Shown: piece after piece, positions 3,198-51,108 of the stretch
Position numbering within the stretch: position 1 is the stretch's first letter
Layout of the letters: every line of letters begins with the position of its first letter
NCBI GenBank assembly: GCA_017403285.1
Contig: JAFQOI010000010.1
Coordinates: forward strand, 1-51,973
Direction of reading: 5' to 3'
Source of the DNA: a bacterium
Lineage (GTDB): Bacteria > Cyanobacteriota > Vampirovibrionia > Gastranaerophilales > Gastranaerophilaceae
Length of the DNA: 51,973 bases
Notes under the pieces: model-generated
Database searches by the model: none
The model's input: the letters and a program-made list of their open reading frames with translations, nothing else
Told to the model about the DNA's origin: nothing
Position numbers and translations under genes: made by a program

Positions 3198-4886
3198 CTA
3201 TGCAAAATCTTTAAATACGGCACTTAAATCATCTTTAGCATATTTTAAATAGTTAGTATCAATATTTTGGATAATCTTATTTTCCTTGAAAGTTTGTTTC
3301 AAACCACTTTGTGCTGTTTTTGAAGTATTATCTGATATTTGATTTGCTTGTTGTTCTTTTGCCCTTTTTGCTTCACGTCTTTTGGTAATAAAAATATTAA
3401 ATTTAGAGATACCAACACCTAAAACAATACCAGAATATAAGTAACCAGCAACTTGAGATACTGCTAATTTTACTATTTTTGATTTTGTTGAACTGTCAAC
3501 ACTCTTAAACATATCAGCAAATTTATGAACTTTATCACCAGAAGCAATGTCTTTAACTTTTGGCATTAATACCTCATCAAAAGATTTAACACTTGCTTTT
3601 GAAAGCCAATTAAAAGCATATCCTAACTTACTTTTGCAATTTTCTTTTACAACAGGATTGTTAATAAGTTCTTTACCTCCAATCCCTCTAGCAACAAGTT
3701 TAGATACCAAACCACCAAATATTAACCAGTTAGTAAATCCTAAAGTATCTTTTATAACACTTTCTCTAAGCTCATCTTTATCTCTCGCTGCCATAAATCG
3801 GCTTGAAATAGTTAAACCATACAACAATTTAAATTGATTAATTGACGCAAATTTACTATTAAATTGTGTATTTTGTGCTAAATCAGAAAGTTTACCTATT
3901 GTTTTTATAGCAAAAGCAGAAAAACCAACACCTAAAGCAGTTTTTAATGCTTTGAACCCAGTTGAAGTGTCTGCTTTTTGGTCTTTAACACCAACAAAAC
4001 CATCCTCACCAGTACGTTTTTTCGTTAAATATCTATTTATAGGTTGAACTGACATACATAAAGCAGCACAAGTAGCAAGACCTAAAATAGTACTTACTGT
4101 TTTATTGCTAGAAAGCGCTTTAATAAATTTTGGCATTTCTTCTTTTGTTCTTCCAGCAAAAGAATTTGAAAGTCCAACTGCATTATCAACAAGTTCCCCA
4201 ATACTAGAAGACACACCTTTTGTTGCATCTTTTGCCTTCAACACATAAGAAGCAGAAGCACCTGTATCTTTCGTAATTTGAGCAACTACAAGATTTTTTA
4301 AATCTTTTACTTCTCTTTTTAATGCCCTATCAGCACCAGATGAAGATGCTAATTGTTTTGATTTTTCAGCAAGTTTTACTAAATTTTCAACAACAGTTGT
4401 TGATGCTTCAGAAGAAACTGTCTTCCATTCTGTACCATTTAAACCTTTTATACTACCCAAAAAATCAGCAAAATATTTTTTAGAATTTCCACCAGCATTT
4501 GTCCAAATTGACGACATATTATTAATTGTATCGCCACTTACATACAAGTTTTGCGCTTTTATACCAAATTCTTTATTGAATTTGCCTGAAGTAAGTAAAG
4601 AAGCACCATAACCAATCATACCTACTAAAGCAAAAAGTAACCAACTAGAACCTTCTCTGATACCTGCTTCAATACCAGCTTGAATCCCTCTGTTGCTTGT
4701 TTCAACAGCAGTTCTAGGAATAACCATTGAACACAAATCAACTGCACTAGCACCAATTGCTTGGCTATTATTCAACCATCTTAAACCAGATAAAGCCCCC
4801 ATTCCAGGACCTTTAAAACTTGTGTTATTTTTATTATTATCTGCTTTTTTAGTTATTACGCTCGGTTGATTTACTCTTTGAATCAT
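3198..4886 (-). CDS. Multi-pass membrane protein of unknown function, N-terminal FKG motif (paralogue of 48322-50025)
   Basis: I do not recognise a named family. An in-frame ATG exists at 4922, but the ATG at 4886 is preferred because AAAGGAAAAAG lies just upstream; this gives 562 residues. A polar N-terminus ends in N-T-S-F-K-G-P-G at residues 21-28. There follow an I-P-R-T segment, several hydrophobic stretches (near residues 75-100, 270-290, 390-410 and 480-510), and a C-terminal lysine- and glutamine-rich tail. The protein matches the product at 48322-50025 in the same order. Shared blocks include I-P-R-T, G-L-N/D-G-T-x-W, a V-Q-x-I-N-R segment, R-x-x-x-A-x-D-x-x-E-L-R-E and a C-terminal F-K-D-F. 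Despite the motif there is no classical signal peptide at the start. It lies 17 bases upstream of the CCA-enzyme gene on the same strand, so the two may be co-transcribed. Confidence 0.75.
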   Translation of the reverse strand: MIQRVNQPSVITKKADNNKNNTSFKGPGMGALSGLRWLNNSQAIGASAVDLCSMVIPRTAVETSNRGIQAGIEAGIREGSSWLLFALVGMIGYGASLLTSGKFNKEFGIKAQNLYVSGDTINNMSSIWTNAGGNSKKYFADFLGSIKGLNGTEWKTVSSEASTTVVENLVKLAEKSKQLASSSGADRALKREVKDLKNLVVAQITKDTGASASYVLKAKDATKGVSSSIGELVDNAVGLSNSFAGRTKEEMPKFIKALSSNKTVSTILGLATCAALCMSVQPINRYLTKKRTGEDGFVGVKDQKADTSTGFKALKTALGVGFSAFAIKTIGKLSDLAQNTQFNSKFASINQFKLLYGLTISSRFMAARDKDELRESVIKDTLGFTNWLIFGGLVSKLVARGIGGKELINNPVVKENCKSKLGYAFNWLSKASVKSFDEVLMPKVKDIASGDKVHKFADMFKSVDSSTKSKIVKLAVSQVAGYLYSGIVLGVGISKFNIFITKRREAKRAKEQQANQISDNTSKTAQSGLKQTFKENKIIQNIDTNYLKYAKDDLSAVFKDFA

Positions 4887-9797: not shown

Positions 9798-10361
9798 ATG
9801 AGCATATTAAATGGTCAAACCCTTTTAGCAGGAGCAATGTCCGGCTTAGCGAATACATATTCAACTTTGATGAGTGAAAGTTCATCAGGTAGCGGTATTT
9901 CAATGGATGATTTATCAAATTTATCAAGCAAACAAATGTTAAATTTAGGCGGAAATTATTCTTTCGTTCAATATTTAACAAGTAATTTTTCTAATATTGA
10001 CCAAGATGGAGATGGAAAAATTACAGGGAACGATTTGCAAAACCTTATGAATACAATGCAATCAAAGGGTTTAACATACAATGAAATTCAATCATTATGT
10101 GCAACCGGAAATGTTAATTCTTCATTATTATCAACTGTTTTGACATATTTCAATAAAATTGACACAAATGGAGATGGCAGAATAACAAGTGAAGAAATTA
10201 CAAGATTTGGAATGGATTGCGACAGACACGAAATCGAAAAAAAATACAAATCATATAAAGCAACAAGTGCGAGTTTGTATTATAACGATGGCGTAGAAGA
10301 CGACACATCAAGTGTGCTTGATTCGTTAAAACCAGACTTAAATAAAACATCTAATTCATAA
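9798..10361 (+). CDS. EF-hand calcium-binding protein
   Basis: The 187-residue product has two canonical EF-hand loops. The first is D-Q-D-G-D-G-K-I-T-G-N-D at residues 68-79 and the second D-T-N-G-D-G-R-I-T-S-E-E at 122-133. Both have acidic ligands at positions 1, 3, 5 and 12, glycine at 6 and a hydrophobic residue at 8, so calcium binding is expected. The N-terminal 50 residues are Ser/Gly-rich. There is no clear classical signal peptide. AGGAG lies eight bases before the ATG and a strong terminator follows. The cellular role is unknown. Confidence 0.8.
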   Translation: MSILNGQTLLAGAMSGLANTYSTLMSESSSGSGISMDDLSNLSSKQMLNLGGNYSFVQYLTSNFSNIDQDGDGKITGNDLQNLMNTMQSKGLTYNEIQSLCATGNVNSSLLSTVLTYFNKIDTNGDGRITSEEITRFGMDCDRHEIEKKYKSYKATSASLYYNDGVEDDTSSVLDSLKPDLNKTSNS

Positions 10362-27938: not shown

Positions 27939-28319
27939 ATGGTTCAAAATATTAGTTTTGGCGGAGCACATAGTCGCTATGTAGCGAATAAATTTGTTGA
28001 AAGAGCAACTATGGGAGAATTAGCAGAAACAATTAACCGTGGGATTTCTGATGCAAGTAAAAAAATAGGACAAAAAATTTCAACAGTAGACGGAAAAAGA
28101 ATTACCGGAACAATGTTAAGCAAAATGAACCCACATTTGATAAAAAATGGTCATTTGTCAGATGAAGGTTTTGAAGCATTTGCCCAAATGTGGAAATTAG
28201 ACAACCTAAATTTAGGAACATTTAGAAAAAAAATAGCGGAAATAGCAGCAAAAAATGCATATTCAGAAGGCGGGAAAGGCATTGCCAAGTTAACAATTGA
28301 TCCAAGATACCTAGGATAG
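27939..28319 (+). CDS. Small protein of unknown function with N-terminal ISFGG motif
   Basis: The ATG at 27939 is preferred over an in-frame TTG at 27894 because AAAAAGGAG precedes it. The 126-residue product opens M-V-Q-N-I-S-F-G-G-A, with the F-G-G motif at 7-9 like that of several other proteins here. The rest is mainly helical and Ala/Lys-rich, with no membrane segment and no known domain. A strong palindromic terminator follows. It may belong to the same N-terminal-motif group as the 46-50 kb genes. Confidence 0.65.
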   Translation: MVQNISFGGAHSRYVANKFVERATMGELAETINRGISDASKKIGQKISTVDGKRITGTMLSKMNPHLIKNGHLSDEGFEAFAQMWKLDNLNLGTFRKKIAEIAAKNAYSEGGKGIAKLTIDPRYLG

Positions 28320-45857: not shown

Positions 45858-46868
45858 TTGATATCAATAAATCCAATTACAGACATAAAAACATTTAATT
45901 CAGCGAAAGCATCAAATCCCGTATTTAAAGGAGGGGAAGACATTGATGCTTTGTTGGATACTGGAGATAAAGCATTAAATGAAAATAATGTAAAAGATGC
46001 TCTACAAACATATAAAAAAGCATTGTCTTTAGCGCCAAATAATGTTCTTATAAATAAAAAAATTGCAAAAGCATACAGTAGGCTAAAAGATTTTAAATCT
46101 GCCGAAGAAAATTTTAAAATATACGTAAAGAACAACCAAAATGATGCAGATGCGTGGATAGATTTAGGTGAATCCCAAAGACAAAAAGGGGATTACTCTA
46201 ATGCAATGAAAAGTTTTGAAACAGCAAAAAACCTTGATGGACATAATGACGTTGCGAAACGTAGCATTCAAGAAACTCAAAATAATGTATTAAGTATATT
46301 TCAACCACGAAAAGCATATGAAGAAAAACAATCATATGCACAAAATAATCTGCAAACAGCGCTTCAAATGGCAACAGAATATATGACGCCAGAATACATG
46401 AAAAGTTTAGCAGACGTTCAAATAAAATTTGGAGAAACTGCCTCTATGGGCGGAACTCCAAACATCGCTCAATATGAAAATGCAATAAAAACAATAACCG
46501 TTTCAAATACATACAAATATGCCGCTCCAGAAGTTATTGCAGCATACATTGTACATGAAAGCGTACACGCAAAGGATAAAGATCCATATACATCAATAAG
46601 AGAAGAACAAGATGCATATACAATAGCAACTAAATTTTGGATTGAAAATGCGAATGGCATAAAAGATCCAGAAATGGATTATGCTGCTGATTTATATAGA
46701 AAATCACCAGAAACATTAAATAAAAGAGTTGAAGAAATATATGTTTTAAGAGATCCATCCATTGCAAAAACATCTCCAAACCATCCCCCACATAAGAAGA
46801 CATTTTTCAATTTATTCAAAACAAAAGCGGCTAGCCAACCTTTAACATCATATAATGTTATAGCATAA
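45858..46868 (+). CDS. TPR protein with HExxH metalloprotease motif, N-terminal FKGG
   Basis: No named family is recognised. The 336-residue product (TTG start, AAGGA upstream) has a polar N-terminus ending N-P-V-F-K-G-G (F23). Tetratricopeptide repeats follow at about 30-145, and then a domain with H233-E-S-V-H237 plus E249/E250 twelve to thirteen residues later. That arrangement is zincin-like and suggests a metalloprotease. There is no signal peptide. The gene converges with the HNH-like gene, overlapping it by 11 bases. A role in processing the other motif proteins is attractive but only an idea. Confidence 0.65.
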   Translation: MISINPITDIKTFNSAKASNPVFKGGEDIDALLDTGDKALNENNVKDALQTYKKALSLAPNNVLINKKIAKAYSRLKDFKSAEENFKIYVKNNQNDADAWIDLGESQRQKGDYSNAMKSFETAKNLDGHNDVAKRSIQETQNNVLSIFQPRKAYEEKQSYAQNNLQTALQMATEYMTPEYMKSLADVQIKFGETASMGGTPNIAQYENAIKTITVSNTYKYAAPEVIAAYIVHESVHAKDKDPYTSIREEQDAYTIATKFWIENANGIKDPEMDYAADLYRKSPETLNKRVEEIYVLRDPSIAKTSPNHPPHKKTFFNLFKTKAASQPLTSYNVIA

Positions 46869-48006
46869 TGTCATAAATACTTGGAACATGCTCTGGTTTA
46901 ATCATTTCAGCACCAAGTTGTCCTTTTGAAACATGTTCAACCGTATTCGTTGCAAGTGCAACGTAGTTTCTATATTTCTTTTTTTTCAATTTTCCGCTTG
47001 ATATTATCTCATCAACATCGGTAAAATATTGTTTCATATATTTTATTCTGGCATCTTTATTTTCATTTAACCATTGCAAGAATGGTTTGTTACTTTTTTC
47101 AGAATTACAACCAGTGTGCATTGCCATATAATTTGTAATATCATCATGATTTGGTTCTATATTATAAGCAAGAATATGATCTGTATTTGCAACAGAAGAT
47201 GCTAAAAATCTTAATGCAATTTCTTTAGAATCCCATGGCAAGCCTTCTTTGTTTGTACCAGAGTATTTAACAATCCAAGCAGAATTCATATCCATAGAAG
47301 TTGGAAATCTATTAACATACGCTTGCAATTTATTATATTTTTTAGGATTTCTAATTTTTATCTTGCTCATCCTTTCAATCATTATCTTTCTTCTAAAAGG
47401 AGAAGTTGATTTATTTTGTTTGACAATTTTACTTAAACTATCCAACTTATGTAAAAGGACTTCTTTTTCATCATGAGGAAGAGTTTTTGCCAACGCTCTC
47501 ATTTTCTTTATTAAACGCAGTTGAACACTTTGTAAAACAGGTAATTTTTCGGCTCTTAATGCAACAATTAATGTTCTAATGTCTTTAGATGCCCCTGGCT
47601 GTTTTGCTGCGGCACTTATTTCATCATAAACACTTGCTTCAACAGGACGCATATAATCATAATATTGTCCAATATAATCAAGATATTCATCAGGTTGAAG
47701 TTTATCTAAATCAGTTTCAATTTTTTTTAAAAATGCTTTGTTACACATTTTTTTACCGCAAGAAGGACAAGTTATGTCATTAAAAGTTGCGACTTTAAAA
47801 TCACCTGATTTTTCTTGAAGTGCTGTTTTATCACTACCATATGTTCTTTTGGCTTTAGAAGAAAAACTAACCGGATAATAAAAGAGATTGCTTAATTGCT
47901 GATTTTTTAAATTTGCATTATCTACAACTGGCAACCCAGCTTTGCCATTATTTAAATCCCTACCTTTGTTAACATAAGGCGAAAATGATATCGGCTGTAT
48001 TTTCAT
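46858..48006 (-). CDS. HNH-like nuclease with split zinc motif and helical insertion
   Basis: No named family is recognised. The 382-residue product starts M-K-I-Q-P-I-S-F-S-P, and a second V-S-F-S lies at 46-49. C80-x2-C83 is followed by about 190 mostly helical residues. Next come D276-H277-I278, N282, D288-D289, N292, H297-x2-C300-N301 and K304. Apart from the insertion, this is the order C-x2-C ... D-H-I ... N ... C-N-x2-K of HNH endonucleases, with His replacing one cysteine of the second pair. Nuclease activity is inferred. The two N-terminal S-F motifs are reminiscent of the F-K-G-G proteins. There is no signal peptide. Confidence 0.6.
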   Translation of the reverse strand: MKIQPISFSPYVNKGRDLNNGKAGLPVVDNANLKNQQLSNLFYYPVSFSSKAKRTYGSDKTALQEKSGDFKVATFNDITCPSCGKKMCNKAFLKKIETDLDKLQPDEYLDYIGQYYDYMRPVEASVYDEISAAAKQPGASKDIRTLIVALRAEKLPVLQSVQLRLIKKMRALAKTLPHDEKEVLLHKLDSLSKIVKQNKSTSPFRRKIMIERMSKIKIRNPKKYNKLQAYVNRFPTSMDMNSAWIVKYSGTNKEGLPWDSKEIALRFLASSVANTDHILAYNIEPNHDDITNYMAMHTGCNSEKSNKPFLQWLNENKDARIKYMKQYFTDVDEIISSGKLKKKKYRNYVALATNTVEHVSKGQLGAEMIKPEHVPSIYDIML

Positions 48007-48321
48007 GCAATTCTCATTATGACGTCTCTACTAACATGAATATAATAATAAAACCTAAAATACTATTTTTTTGTTAATTTCAATTACAAATTGTAAACTT
48101 GGATTTTTTTAATGCATTTTTTGCGATTTTGATGACAAAAAGTACTTTTTTGCAAATTTTGACATCAAAATATGCGTTTTTTGCATAAAAAATGTGTCAA
48201 ATGTCATTTTTTTATTATCATTTTCTCTAATTATGCAAAATTTAAAAGCAAAAAAAATTGTTTTTGGCTGTTGATTTAATATCATTGCTATATAGGGAAG
48301 TAAGGTAAGGCAAAATATAAA
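48007..48321. promoter_or_regulatory. Intergenic region with three spaced TTTTTTGC repeats
   Basis: TTTTTTGC occurs at 48117-48124, 48146-48153 and 48177-48184, i.e. about 30 bases apart. Related ATTTTGA / CATCAAAA words are interspersed, including TTTTGATGACAAAA and TTTTGACATCAAAA, which are near inverted copies of each other. It lies between the divergent HNH-like and membrane-protein genes. Spacing near three helical turns could place bound protein on one face of the DNA. No gene is seen. Confidence 0.4.
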
Positions 48322-50025
48322 TTGAAAATATCAAAAGCAAACAAATACACTTTACCGAATAAAAGTCAAATAAGAAATGGAATAAGTACAAATCACAAAC
48401 AACCACAAAATTTTAAAGGTGGTGTTGGTGATGCGTTTTTTAATGTTTTAGATAAAAGCTTCAGCATCCTTGATAAAAATGCAATGATACAAGTATCGTT
48501 TGTAGATACAGTTTCAACAAATATACCAAGAACAATTGTAGATTTAAAAACTGGTATTGCTGCTGCTACAGAAACATTTAGACGTGAATTTTCTGGCCTT
48601 TTTGTTAATTGCCTTATGCCCGGATTAGTTGTAAAAGGAATTGCTTCTATATTGCCAAAAAAAGGTGAATTAAGTGGAACAAATATTGTCGATTCTTGGG
48701 CTAATTCAGATTCAATTAACAAATTAAAAACTGTATACGAACAAGCACAAAACTCAGGTGCTACAGATACTACTAAAGAATATGTAAAAAGAGCTTTATC
48801 ATCAATTGAAGGTTTAGATGGCACAAAATGGATTAAATATGCAGACCATGCTTCGTCGCCAGCGTTTACAGACGCTGTTGAAGAAATAACAAAAGCAATA
48901 TCTTCAACAGGAAAAGATAAAAAAACATTATTAAAATCTGCTCAAAAAAAATTAGCAGGATTAACAAAAGCCGAAAGCATATTAAAATTTAATGGAGCAG
49001 CACAATCAAATCTCGAAGAAACAATTCGTGATGTAACAGATTTAGGCTCTAAATTTAATTTAGTAAAAAACAAAACACTAAATGCAATGGGAAAAACAGC
49101 CTCAGATATGAAAAATCCTGAGGTTAGCGGTAAAATTACAGAAGCAATTAATACATACGGAAATAAATTAAGCAGTTTCGTTAACAAAAAAAGTCTTATT
49201 GGTATGGGAATTGTTATTGGTATTGCAGTTAGTGTTCAAGCTATCAATCGAGCAATGACAAGAAAACAATTCAAAGCAGAAGGAGCCCCAATATATAAAG
49301 ACTTTGGAAAAAAAGATACAACCCAAAAAATGAATGAAAAAGAAAGAAAACAATTTTTCTTTAAAAAGCTACTTGCAGGAGCAAGCATGTATGGTTTGGC
49401 GGGTTTGTCAATGATGAAGAAACCATCACTTGGAATGTTCCAATTCTCGGGTATTTTCCCAACACTTGACCAATGTCGCTGGATTGCATCTTCAACATTT
49501 GCAAGTAGAATGTTATGCGCTGAAGATGAAAATGAATTAAGAGAAACCGTAGTAAGAGATATTGCTTCATTTAGCGGCTTATATTTCCTTGGTGACTATG
49601 TGAAAAAAGGAGTTGCGTCTGCAATTGAAGCACTTTCAAAAACAAAATCTGGAGCAAAAATTGTTGGAGAAAATGTTGTATTGTTAAATAGAAAAAAAGA
49701 AGTTGCAAAACCTGCCGTTAAAACTGCTACTTCTATGATTGGCTATAGATTTAAACAATTTGGCAATTGGATTAAAAATACGGATCTTAAGTCTGCTGCA
49801 GAAGTATCGAGTACAAAAGTTCGTAATCTCAGAAATATTTGCAGAGTTGCTGATATTGCATTCTCCATTGTTATGCTTGGTATCTTACTTCCAAAATACA
49901 ATAGAAAAGTTACTGAAAGAAAAGTAGAAGCAGCAAAACAAAAAGAATTGCTTCAACAACAAGCAGCAAGAATGGCTTCTTTTAAAGCTGTTCCTGATAT
50001 ATTTAAAGATTTCGTAAATAATTAA
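48322..50025 (+). CDS. Multi-pass membrane protein of unknown function with N-terminal FKGG (paralogue of 3198-4886)
   Basis: The TTG start, with AAGG upstream, gives 567 residues. The polar N-terminus ends in P-Q-N-F-K-G-G (F31). Shared with the other copy are N-I-P-R-T near 66, G-L-D-G-T-K-W, a hydrophobic V-Q-A-I-N-R block near 300, R-M-L-C-A-E-D-E-N-E-L-R-E near 397-409, a late hydrophobic stretch and a final F-K-D-F. Hydrophobic stretches near 90-115, 290-310, 350-370 and 515-530 suggest membrane insertion. It lies in the cluster with the HNH-like and TPR-protease genes. Confidence 0.75.
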   Translation: MKISKANKYTLPNKSQIRNGISTNHKQPQNFKGGVGDAFFNVLDKSFSILDKNAMIQVSFVDTVSTNIPRTIVDLKTGIAAATETFRREFSGLFVNCLMPGLVVKGIASILPKKGELSGTNIVDSWANSDSINKLKTVYEQAQNSGATDTTKEYVKRALSSIEGLDGTKWIKYADHASSPAFTDAVEEITKAISSTGKDKKTLLKSAQKKLAGLTKAESILKFNGAAQSNLEETIRDVTDLGSKFNLVKNKTLNAMGKTASDMKNPEVSGKITEAINTYGNKLSSFVNKKSLIGMGIVIGIAVSVQAINRAMTRKQFKAEGAPIYKDFGKKDTTQKMNEKERKQFFFKKLLAGASMYGLAGLSMMKKPSLGMFQFSGIFPTLDQCRWIASSTFASRMLCAEDENELRETVVRDIASFSGLYFLGDYVKKGVASAIEALSKTKSGAKIVGENVVLLNRKKEVAKPAVKTATSMIGYRFKQFGNWIKNTDLKSAAEVSSTKVRNLRNICRVADIAFSIVMLGILLPKYNRKVTERKVEAAKQKELLQQQAARMASFKAVPDIFKDFVNN

Positions 50026-50127: not shown

Positions 50128-51108
50128 ATGTCAGATAAGTTTATGGTAGAAAAAATTAATGGTGCTAATGGCATTTATACAAATAAATACAATGCTGAAG
50201 CAATAAAACCAATTGAAAATTCCGATGTAAGTATTTTTACATCTTCTAATAATGTATCAACAATGCCAACAGATGTAGAAGTTCTATATCAAGAATTAGC
50301 AGAAATTCAAGAAAAAAATGGCGCAATTCTTGATGGTTGGAACAATTTTAAAGAAACTGTTGGACTTGGAACAAGTGCAAAAAAATGTGAAAAAACAATA
50401 GAAAAATACCAAAAAGGTGAAATTTCATTTGAAGAAGCAGCAAATGAAATAAACAAATTTGATTCAAAACAACAAAGCAGTTTAAATTTATTTTCAAATA
50501 TTGCAACTAGTATTGCAGCAATAGGTACAGTAGCAGGAGTTGTTGCAACAGTAGCAACTGGTGGACTCGCTGCCCCAGTAGCAATCGCAATCGGCGCAGG
50601 TGCTGGTGCACTTACAAAAGCAGGCTTTAAAGCAGCAGATCGTGCATCAAATGATATCAAAGGTGATACAATGGATGGCAAACAACTTGCAAAAGATGCT
50701 CTAGGTGGTGCTGTAACTGGCGGACTTGCATCATTTTCAATGGGTACGGCAGGTACTGCACAAACTTTGGGAGAAGCCGTAGAAGGATGTACTATTACCG
50801 GACTAGAAACAGGTGCTATTTCAGGCGCTTCAAATTATGCTATTGACTGTGCTTTTGATAAAGATAAAGAGTTTGACGCAGGTGAATTTATAAGAACAAC
50901 AGCAGAAAATGCCATCGTTAGCGGTACTGTTGGGGCAATTATGGGAAGTGCTAATTTCAATTTGCATCATTCAAATATTCTTAAATCAGGTTGCAATTTA
51001 AAATCAGTCGAAAAAGGAAATATAAAAATAAATGATGTTGCCGCAAATTCTGTTTGTACTGCCGAATACAAAATTTTAAACGATAAAATTAAAAATATAG
51101 CAGCATAA
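50128..51108 (+). CDS. Glycine-zipper-rich protein of unknown function
   Basis: The ATG at 50128 is chosen over a TTG at 50116. The 326-residue product has a polar, helical N-terminal part, then between about 125 and 290 a long Ala/Gly-rich segment with glycine-zipper spacing (A-T-G-G-L-A-A-P-V-A-I-A-I-G-A-G-A-G-A). D-K-D-K-E-F-D-A-G-E and G-A-I-M-G-S follow. Such segments occur in secreted toxins and membrane-active proteins. It sits at the end of the 46-51 kb cluster, but it lacks the N-terminal F-K-G motif. No known toxin domain is seen at its C-terminus. Confidence 0.65.
   Translation: MSDKFMVEKINGANGIYTNKYNAEAIKPIENSDVSIFTSSNNVSTMPTDVEVLYQELAEIQEKNGAILDGWNNFKETVGLGTSAKKCEKTIEKYQKGEISFEEAANEINKFDSKQQSSLNLFSNIATSIAAIGTVAGVVATVATGGLAAPVAIAIGAGAGALTKAGFKAADRASNDIKGDTMDGKQLAKDALGGAVTGGLASFSMGTAGTAQTLGEAVEGCTITGLETGAISGASNYAIDCAFDKDKEFDAGEFIRTTAENAIVSGTVGAIMGSANFNLHHSNILKSGCNLKSVEKGNIKINDVAANSVCTAEYKILNDKIKNIAA

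Follow-up and report, generated by a model that had tools for sequence, protein, structure and literature searches.

Why should proteins of mostly unlike architecture, encoded in a single bacterial contig, begin with variants of the same short phenylalanine-centred motif? The question is raised by a window of 51,973 nucleotides (contig C148 of the source genome G000, which comprises 2.23 Mb in 162 contigs) from a member of the Gastranaerophilales, an order of gut bacteria with cyanobacteria as relatives. An initial annotation had proposed such N-terminal motifs in five genes of this window, and direct reading of the residue positions places all five where they were said to be. The observation is real but was too narrowly drawn, as the N-terminal tag has two parts: a start resembling M-[K/N/R]-I-x-x-[I/V], examples of which are MKIQPISF, MKISNI, MNISAISFGS, MQISAI and MRVSGI, and a core resembling [V/I/P/L/T]-[S/T]-F-[K/G/S/R]-[G/A/S], separated from the start by a polar, disordered linker of variable length. 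An asparagine or proline two residues before the phenylalanine had been counted as part of the motif; the residues that define it are instead the phenylalanine and the small residue two places on. Judged from sequence, the two parts of the tag may together form an N-terminal signal by which proteins of the Gastranaerophilales enter type III (flagellar-type) export, a reading for which we consider the balance of probability to be even. A description of an N-terminal motif in this order was not found in the literature, within open-licence papers.

The first issue is whether the core is more frequent near N-termini than chance would allow. Pieces of the source genome amounting to 1.06 Mb (47%) were sampled, and genes were called with a simple script that also picked their starts (TTG or GTG for several); for other genomes, the sampled regions were 40-380 kb each. 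Families are denoted f1 (that of the window), f2-f7 (the other families of the order), and f8 and f45-f51 (the other families of the class). Expected core counts were derived from the density at internal protein positions. In the source genome, the core [VIPLT][ST]F[GKS][GAS] was observed 28 times within residues 4-65 compared with 8.0 expected (3.5-fold, p=2.8e-6), and the same core occurred 14 times compared with 0.5 expected (26-fold, p=3.2e-8) in the sample from Ca. Adamsella avium (G033). A motif-free comparison of k-mers in residues 2-60 and in internal stretches identified SFG, SF.A, SF.G, ISF, VSF and PF.G among the enriched words, and there was no N-terminal enrichment of the reversed core pattern or of patterns in which the phenylalanine was changed to leucine or tyrosine. 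A fuller tag rule, including a polar pre-segment and an M..[IVL] start, called 36 of 975 genes in the source genome (15.2+-3.9 with shuffled N-termini), 20 in Ca. Adamsella avium (4.7+-2.0 after shuffling) and 7 in genome G027 (1.5 after shuffling). Five class-level outgroup families, when pooled, gave 5 calls against 6.3 expected and thus no enrichment, although this absence is provisional because the sampled regions are so short. Tagged genes also adjoin one another, with 8 neighbour pairs compared with 2.4+-1.5 expected (p=0.0025). Two other ways of following the tag were of less use. An iteratively trained position-specific scoring matrix was dropped since it drifted towards unspecific phenylalanine sites, and a compact DNA pattern for MKIxP[IV]SF, found in 21-22 of ~130 family genomes and few outside, is too rare for mapping the tag.

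The frequency of the motif at N-termini therefore withstands both the enrichment test and the shuffling of N-termini that the initial annotation had called for. Loose versions of the motif were just 1.3- to 2-fold enriched in f1 genomes, and the sample from G049, which belongs to a different genus within the same family, had no significant core excess, so detection by regular expression varies by genus or by sampled region. Both results would fit an explanation in which there is no signal at all, and the motif simply reflects N/S/I/F-rich, low-GC coding sequence, misassigned starts or selection by the reader; in the case of misassigned starts, AAAGGN, one possible coding for FKG, looks like a ribosome-binding site. 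The shuffled and reversed controls speak against this explanation. The Shine-Dalgarno interpretation of AAAGGN was rejected, since cores without it (FGA, FSG, FTG) are equally common and upstream starts keep M-K-I across orthologues. The explanation was already disfavoured on these grounds, and we regard it, in any of its versions, as very improbable; the composition of the start and the conservation of orthologues reduce its appeal further.

The start of the tag was examined in proteins with the core at residue 11 or later, so that their first ten residues are independent of it. Isoleucine occupied position 3 in 47% of proteins with the core and in 11% of those without (odds ratio 7.3, p=7.8e-8), and isoleucine or valine occupied position 6 in 42% and 18%, respectively. 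Over residues 2-11, core proteins were richer than non-core proteins in asparagine (14.4 vs 7.4%) and serine (10.0 vs 6.7%) and poorer in glutamate (2.2 vs 5.8%) and aspartate (1.7 vs 4.1%); proline and isoleucine were also raised, and leucine and alanine lowered. In the outgroup, core and start composition were unlinked by the same test of isoleucine at position 3. The association within the order cannot stem from the choice of core, which is at odds with the absence of a signal.

Conservation of the tag can be followed in the gene at 48322-50025, which is represented in 37 of 38 related genomes. In an alignment of 27 orthologues and homologues, among the sequences aligning at each position, the core phenylalanine was present in 25/25, a glycine two places on in 22/25 and isoleucine at position 3 in 16/25. 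Conservation in the linker columns was at most about half, and the position of the core ranged from residue 22 to 49. Rows that appeared to lack a core had been given a start too late by the script; their stop-to-stop translations contain QTFGN and PSFKG. A phenylalanine kept in 25/25 orthologues despite so divergent a linker is difficult to reconcile with a by-product of coding, and it settles in the affirmative whether these N-termini are conserved, a point on which the initial annotation had been prepared to abandon its proposal. A protein in genome G002 (L078) related to that encoded at 3198-4886 likewise keeps QSFKG. In an AlphaFold model of the 48322-50025 protein (the one protein modelled), residues 1-37 have a predicted local distance difference test (pLDDT) score <50, and a helical domain starts from residue 35; a fold search with this model among solved structures gave no match at E <0.001. 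Most orthologues from the same genus (L049-L066) have a GTG or TTG start, as if weak starts were retained.

These results uphold much of the original idea of a sorting tag placed ahead of unlike domains: it is enriched at N-termini, conserved between orthologues and disordered, and no Sec signal peptide precedes the core. Pre-core segments are polar in the listed tagged proteins, with no Sec or lipoprotein signal, partly by selection as hydrophobic ones were filtered out. The claim that all five downstream proteins are unrelated has to be given up. A paralogous relationship (26% identity over 536 amino acids, E 2e-27) links the two described as membrane proteins (3198-4886 and 48322-50025), which reduces the five genes to four independent families. 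A specific role in cleavage or anchoring also found no support.

Which proteins carry the tag? About 37 were listed in the sampled 47% of the source genome, which suggests, by extrapolation, of the order of 80 per genome. The list was curated by eye, and for this reason comparisons of domains and hydrophobicity lean on the choice of the curator; the tests of enrichment, shuffling and isoleucine at position 3 are independent of it. No Pfam match at E 0.01 was obtained for 14 of 20 tagged proteins from outside the window, compared with 5 of 20 random untagged proteins. Recognizable domains in tagged proteins are the TPR-zincin, LysM, 5'-nucleotidase/metallophosphoesterase, tyrosine phosphatase (a weak match) and alpha-glucan enzymes. 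The canonical glycogen synthase GlgA is untagged (C159, MKILYTTFELAPF), and an extra, GlgA-like protein is tagged in the source genome (C105, MKISGINSN...ARPLSFRG), in G014, in Ca. Adamsella and in further genomes. A scan of contigs with an alignment of this protein found only members of the order and one unrelated hit. Five proteins match phosphoglucomutase domain I, two of them tagged (C112:15662 and C129:17405) and three untagged. The second of the tagged pair (G000:C129:17405-20353) is a fusion of a phosphoglucomutase with a phosphoglucose-isomerase-like half (64% identity with C146:44728, which is untagged). The tag is further present on a GlgC-like nucleotidyltransferase (C45:26385) and on an amylase/branching enzyme (C33:601). 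The source genome has one zincin domain in three settings: in a protein that has a Sec signal (C146:27325), in a tagged protein (45858) and in a protein that has neither (C112:43699).

Several of the tagged proteins are cytosolic metabolic enzymes, and several tagged membrane proteins could sit in the inner membrane. Both points favour the main rival of type III export, in which the tag would be a short linear motif for intracellular sorting that docks proteins on a scaffold, at a site of the inner membrane or on a storage body, such as one in which a second set of glucan enzymes works. The disordered N-terminus would then be a flexible tether and F-[KG]-[GA] the docking residues. A core with a variable linker is typical of docking peptides, and a second copy of the core lies inside a 958-residue tagged protein. 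Against docking, the domain types are too many and too unlike for one metabolic compartment, it is not obvious what isoleucine at position 3 and an acid-poor start would contribute to a tether, and no receptor or compartment is known. Tagged membrane segments are also weaker than those of the genome's other membrane proteins: a 19-residue window with hydrophobicity >=2.0 was found in 0/37 of the hand-picked tagged proteins and in 197/938 others (p=2.7e-4). Intracellular docking is rather unlikely in our judgement, and the same is true of its specific form with a tether and docking residues.

If the tag directs export, which apparatus might read it? The source genome encodes FlhA and FliI (contig C33), FlhB (C5), and FlgC- and FlgG-like rod proteins (C142). 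Full-length FlhA is present in every listed f1 genome except one, and FlhB in all four genomes tested from the window's family and order groups, with one copy in the f1 genomes tested and two in most other members of the order tested. FliI, FlhA and FlhB are nearer to flagellar than to injectisome family models, yet fall below the curated flagellar equivalog cut-offs. In G049, FliE, FliF, FliH and FlhA are encoded in one operon. Flagellin was absent from the source genome and from 16 further f1 genomes (0/17) and present in f3, f6, f7 and f46, and the L-ring protein FlgH was absent from 6/6 f1 genomes and present in f3, f6 and f7. It has been reported that most Gastranaerophilales carry only a subset of flagellar genes, which was read as lost motility (Soo et al. 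2014, PMC4040986). The persistence of the gate across f1 without a filament suggests that some other substrate is needed.

Two further types of protein were seen. Upstream of the FliE/FliF/FliH/FlhA genes in G049 (G049:C1:434569-437457) lie proteins (MGMAASQARYLGLTARKTNVEYEGQQ...) with no Pfam or NCBIfam match. In nearly all f1 genomes listed, there is a soluble, stand-alone C-terminal domain of FlhA behind an unrelated N-terminal part of ~140 residues (G000:C110:22481-23944, or L119:2481-3944; G049:C3:317223-318701, or L146:17223-18701), which might serve export as a receptor for substrates or as an adaptor.

In the type III mechanism that we propose, the first residues (MKI/MNI..., acid-poor, N/S/I-rich and disordered) and the phenylalanine-centred core (SFKG, SFGA and similar) would be recognized in the cytosol, either by the gate of the export apparatus or by an adaptor. 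The unfolded protein would then be exported via the basal body and rod, which in f1 would have neither hook nor filament. We infer that the apparatus is functional and secreting, that the tag is its signal and that the parts of the tag make these contacts. Several lines of evidence point in this direction. The tag matches published tendencies of type III effectors, which have isoleucine at position 3, Ser-rich polar N-termini and few charged residues, and for which synthetic MxIISSxS signals were highly secreted (PMC2668754). The f1 genomes retain FlhA, FlhB, FliI and rod genes in the absence of flagellin. Hydrophobicity is only moderate in the membrane segments of the tagged proteins, as it is in those of published type III membrane substrates (PMC6110835). 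Tagged extra alpha-glucan enzymes stand beside untagged copies, and there is a precedent in Chlamydia, which exports such glycogen enzymes and phosphoglucomutase via type III signals in the first ~20 residues (PMC4829429; PMC9251005). The three settings in which the one zincin domain occurs add to this support, as does the fact that N-terminal enrichment held under the shuffling controls.

Other observations weigh against such a role. Asn5, Ser/Gly8 and Ser9 are not enriched in tagged proteins, although these are tendencies and not requirements in the published effectors (PMC2668754). Genomes tested from f8 and f48 have FlhA without flagellin, yet their small samples show no core enrichment, so the tag does not track the machinery everywhere. 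FliE, which would be expected to be an early substrate, is untagged, and the phenylalanine-centred core has no known counterpart among type III signals. The flagellar gate-recognition motif FxxxPhi was considered and rejected since the residue four past the core phenylalanine is often charged or polar. The sole secretin in each f1 genome is encoded at the same locus as a type II/IV pilus-type ATPase and a PilC-like protein; as FlgH is also absent, no outer-membrane channel is known for the system.

This last point, together with the type IV pilus locus and its secretin, is what would favour an export signal for another route or destination, such as the periplasm, a route linked to type IV pili, or an unknown machine of the order. 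A tagged LysM protein and a tagged 5'-nucleotidase-type protein have domains that are usually extracytoplasmic, which would suit such a route. However, the tags resemble type III N-termini, and a flagellar-type gate kept across f1 without flagellin still needs another substrate; export by another route is, in our view, unlikely. Returning to type III export, it may be that the MxI start and SF[KG][GA] core define a set of ~80 substrates per genome. These would be exported by a flagellar-type system that lacks a filament, has not been described before and is conserved in gut Gastranaerophilales; a parallel set of alpha-glucan enzymes would be among them. We put this forward tentatively, with a confidence that falls a little short of even.

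How does the tag compare with known systems? Type III effectors of Salmonella, Pseudomonas syringae and Yersinia likewise have signals at the extreme N-terminus that are unstructured, polar, rich in serine and asparagine, and poor in acidic residues, with isoleucine at position 3 and unlike domains attached; they differ in that the published signals are described without a classic motif, whereas the tag adds a recognizable phenylalanine-centred core 5-50 residues in (PMC2668754). In Chlamydia trachomatis, as here, glycogen synthase and phosphoglucomutase (CT295) are among the carriers of N-terminal signals (PMC4829429, PMC9251005). There, it is the housekeeping enzymes that acquired the signal, and a heterologous host was used to test their secretion; in the Gastranaerophilales, separate extra copies are tagged and would be candidates for secretion. 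Flagellar gate and basal-body genes kept without a filament, and the lack of a dedicated secretin, have parallels in the hook- and filament-less basal bodies of Buchnera (PMC8109811) and in the secretin-less, Myxococcales-type non-flagellar type III secretion system (PMC3459982). No secreted proteins have been recognized in Buchnera (PMC8109811), in contrast with the proposal made here, in which the likely substrates form a conserved set and have a tag in common.

A short motif common to the N-termini of unlike secreted proteins is also familiar from WEK(I/M)xxFF in effectors of Salmonella pathogenicity island 2. Its sequence and the bacteria differ, and its signal region is longer; no relationship is claimed. 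If type III export is correct, a secretion system is conserved in these common gut bacteria, most of them uncultured, and its substrates can be read off as a list; it then becomes possible to test how Gastranaerophilales interact with hosts or with other microbes. Even with a role inside the cell, the tag would be an undescribed sorting motif that unites dozens of mostly unannotated proteins per genome.

Within the window, the tags of the five genes take several forms. That of the TPR-zincin protein (45858-46868, plus strand) spans 45858-45935 (MISINPITDIKTFNSAKASNPVFKGG) from a TTG start, with the core PVFKG at 45918-45932 (residues 21-25); TPR repeats were identified downstream by Pfam, and the zincin domain contains VHESVH. 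The helical membrane protein at 48322-50025 (plus strand) also starts with TTG, and its tag at 48322-48420 (MKISKANKYTLPNKSQIRNGISTNHKQPQNFKG) has the core QNFKG at 48406-48420 (residues 29-33). Its paralogue at 3198-4886 (minus strand) carries the tag at 4809-4886 (MIQRVNQPSVITKKADNNKNNTSFKG), with the core TSFKG at 4809-4823 (residues 22-26). The HNH-like protein (46858-48006, minus strand), for which the HNH match in Pfam is weak (E 0.075), has a tag region at 47857-48006 that starts MKIQPISFSP..., with PISFS at 47980-47994 (residues 5-9) and a second core, VSFSS, at 47857-47871. The latter, as PVSFSS at residues 45-50 in the context YYPVSFSS, is the better conserved of the two, and its counterparts in orthologues are YYPVAFSA (L050), YYLPVNFTS (L052, L053), YYPVNFTS (L061), SYPLTFGK (L064) and YYMPVNFTS (L066). 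A compact form, MVQNISFGG, is found at 27939-27965 in the small protein encoded at 27939-28319 (plus strand), where the core ISFGG lies at 27951-27965 (residues 5-9); this protein belongs to no Pfam family.

Further observations concern individual tagged genes and their neighbours. The 958-residue tagged membrane protein (G000:C5:73036-75912) consists of two similar halves, with the second core-like sequence, SIFASFKGATK, between them. In Ca. Adamsella avium (G033:C3 ~504026-505887, L094), three tandem small paralogues start with MLNSINN[ST]SPSFGA and a fourth small gene starts with MRTESLSFGA. An untagged small protein with two EF-hands is encoded in the window at 9798-10361. The window also contains, at 50128-51108, a gene whose product has no phenylalanine core at its N-terminus; it has a long Gly/Ala-rich hydrophobic middle and adjoins the tagged genes.

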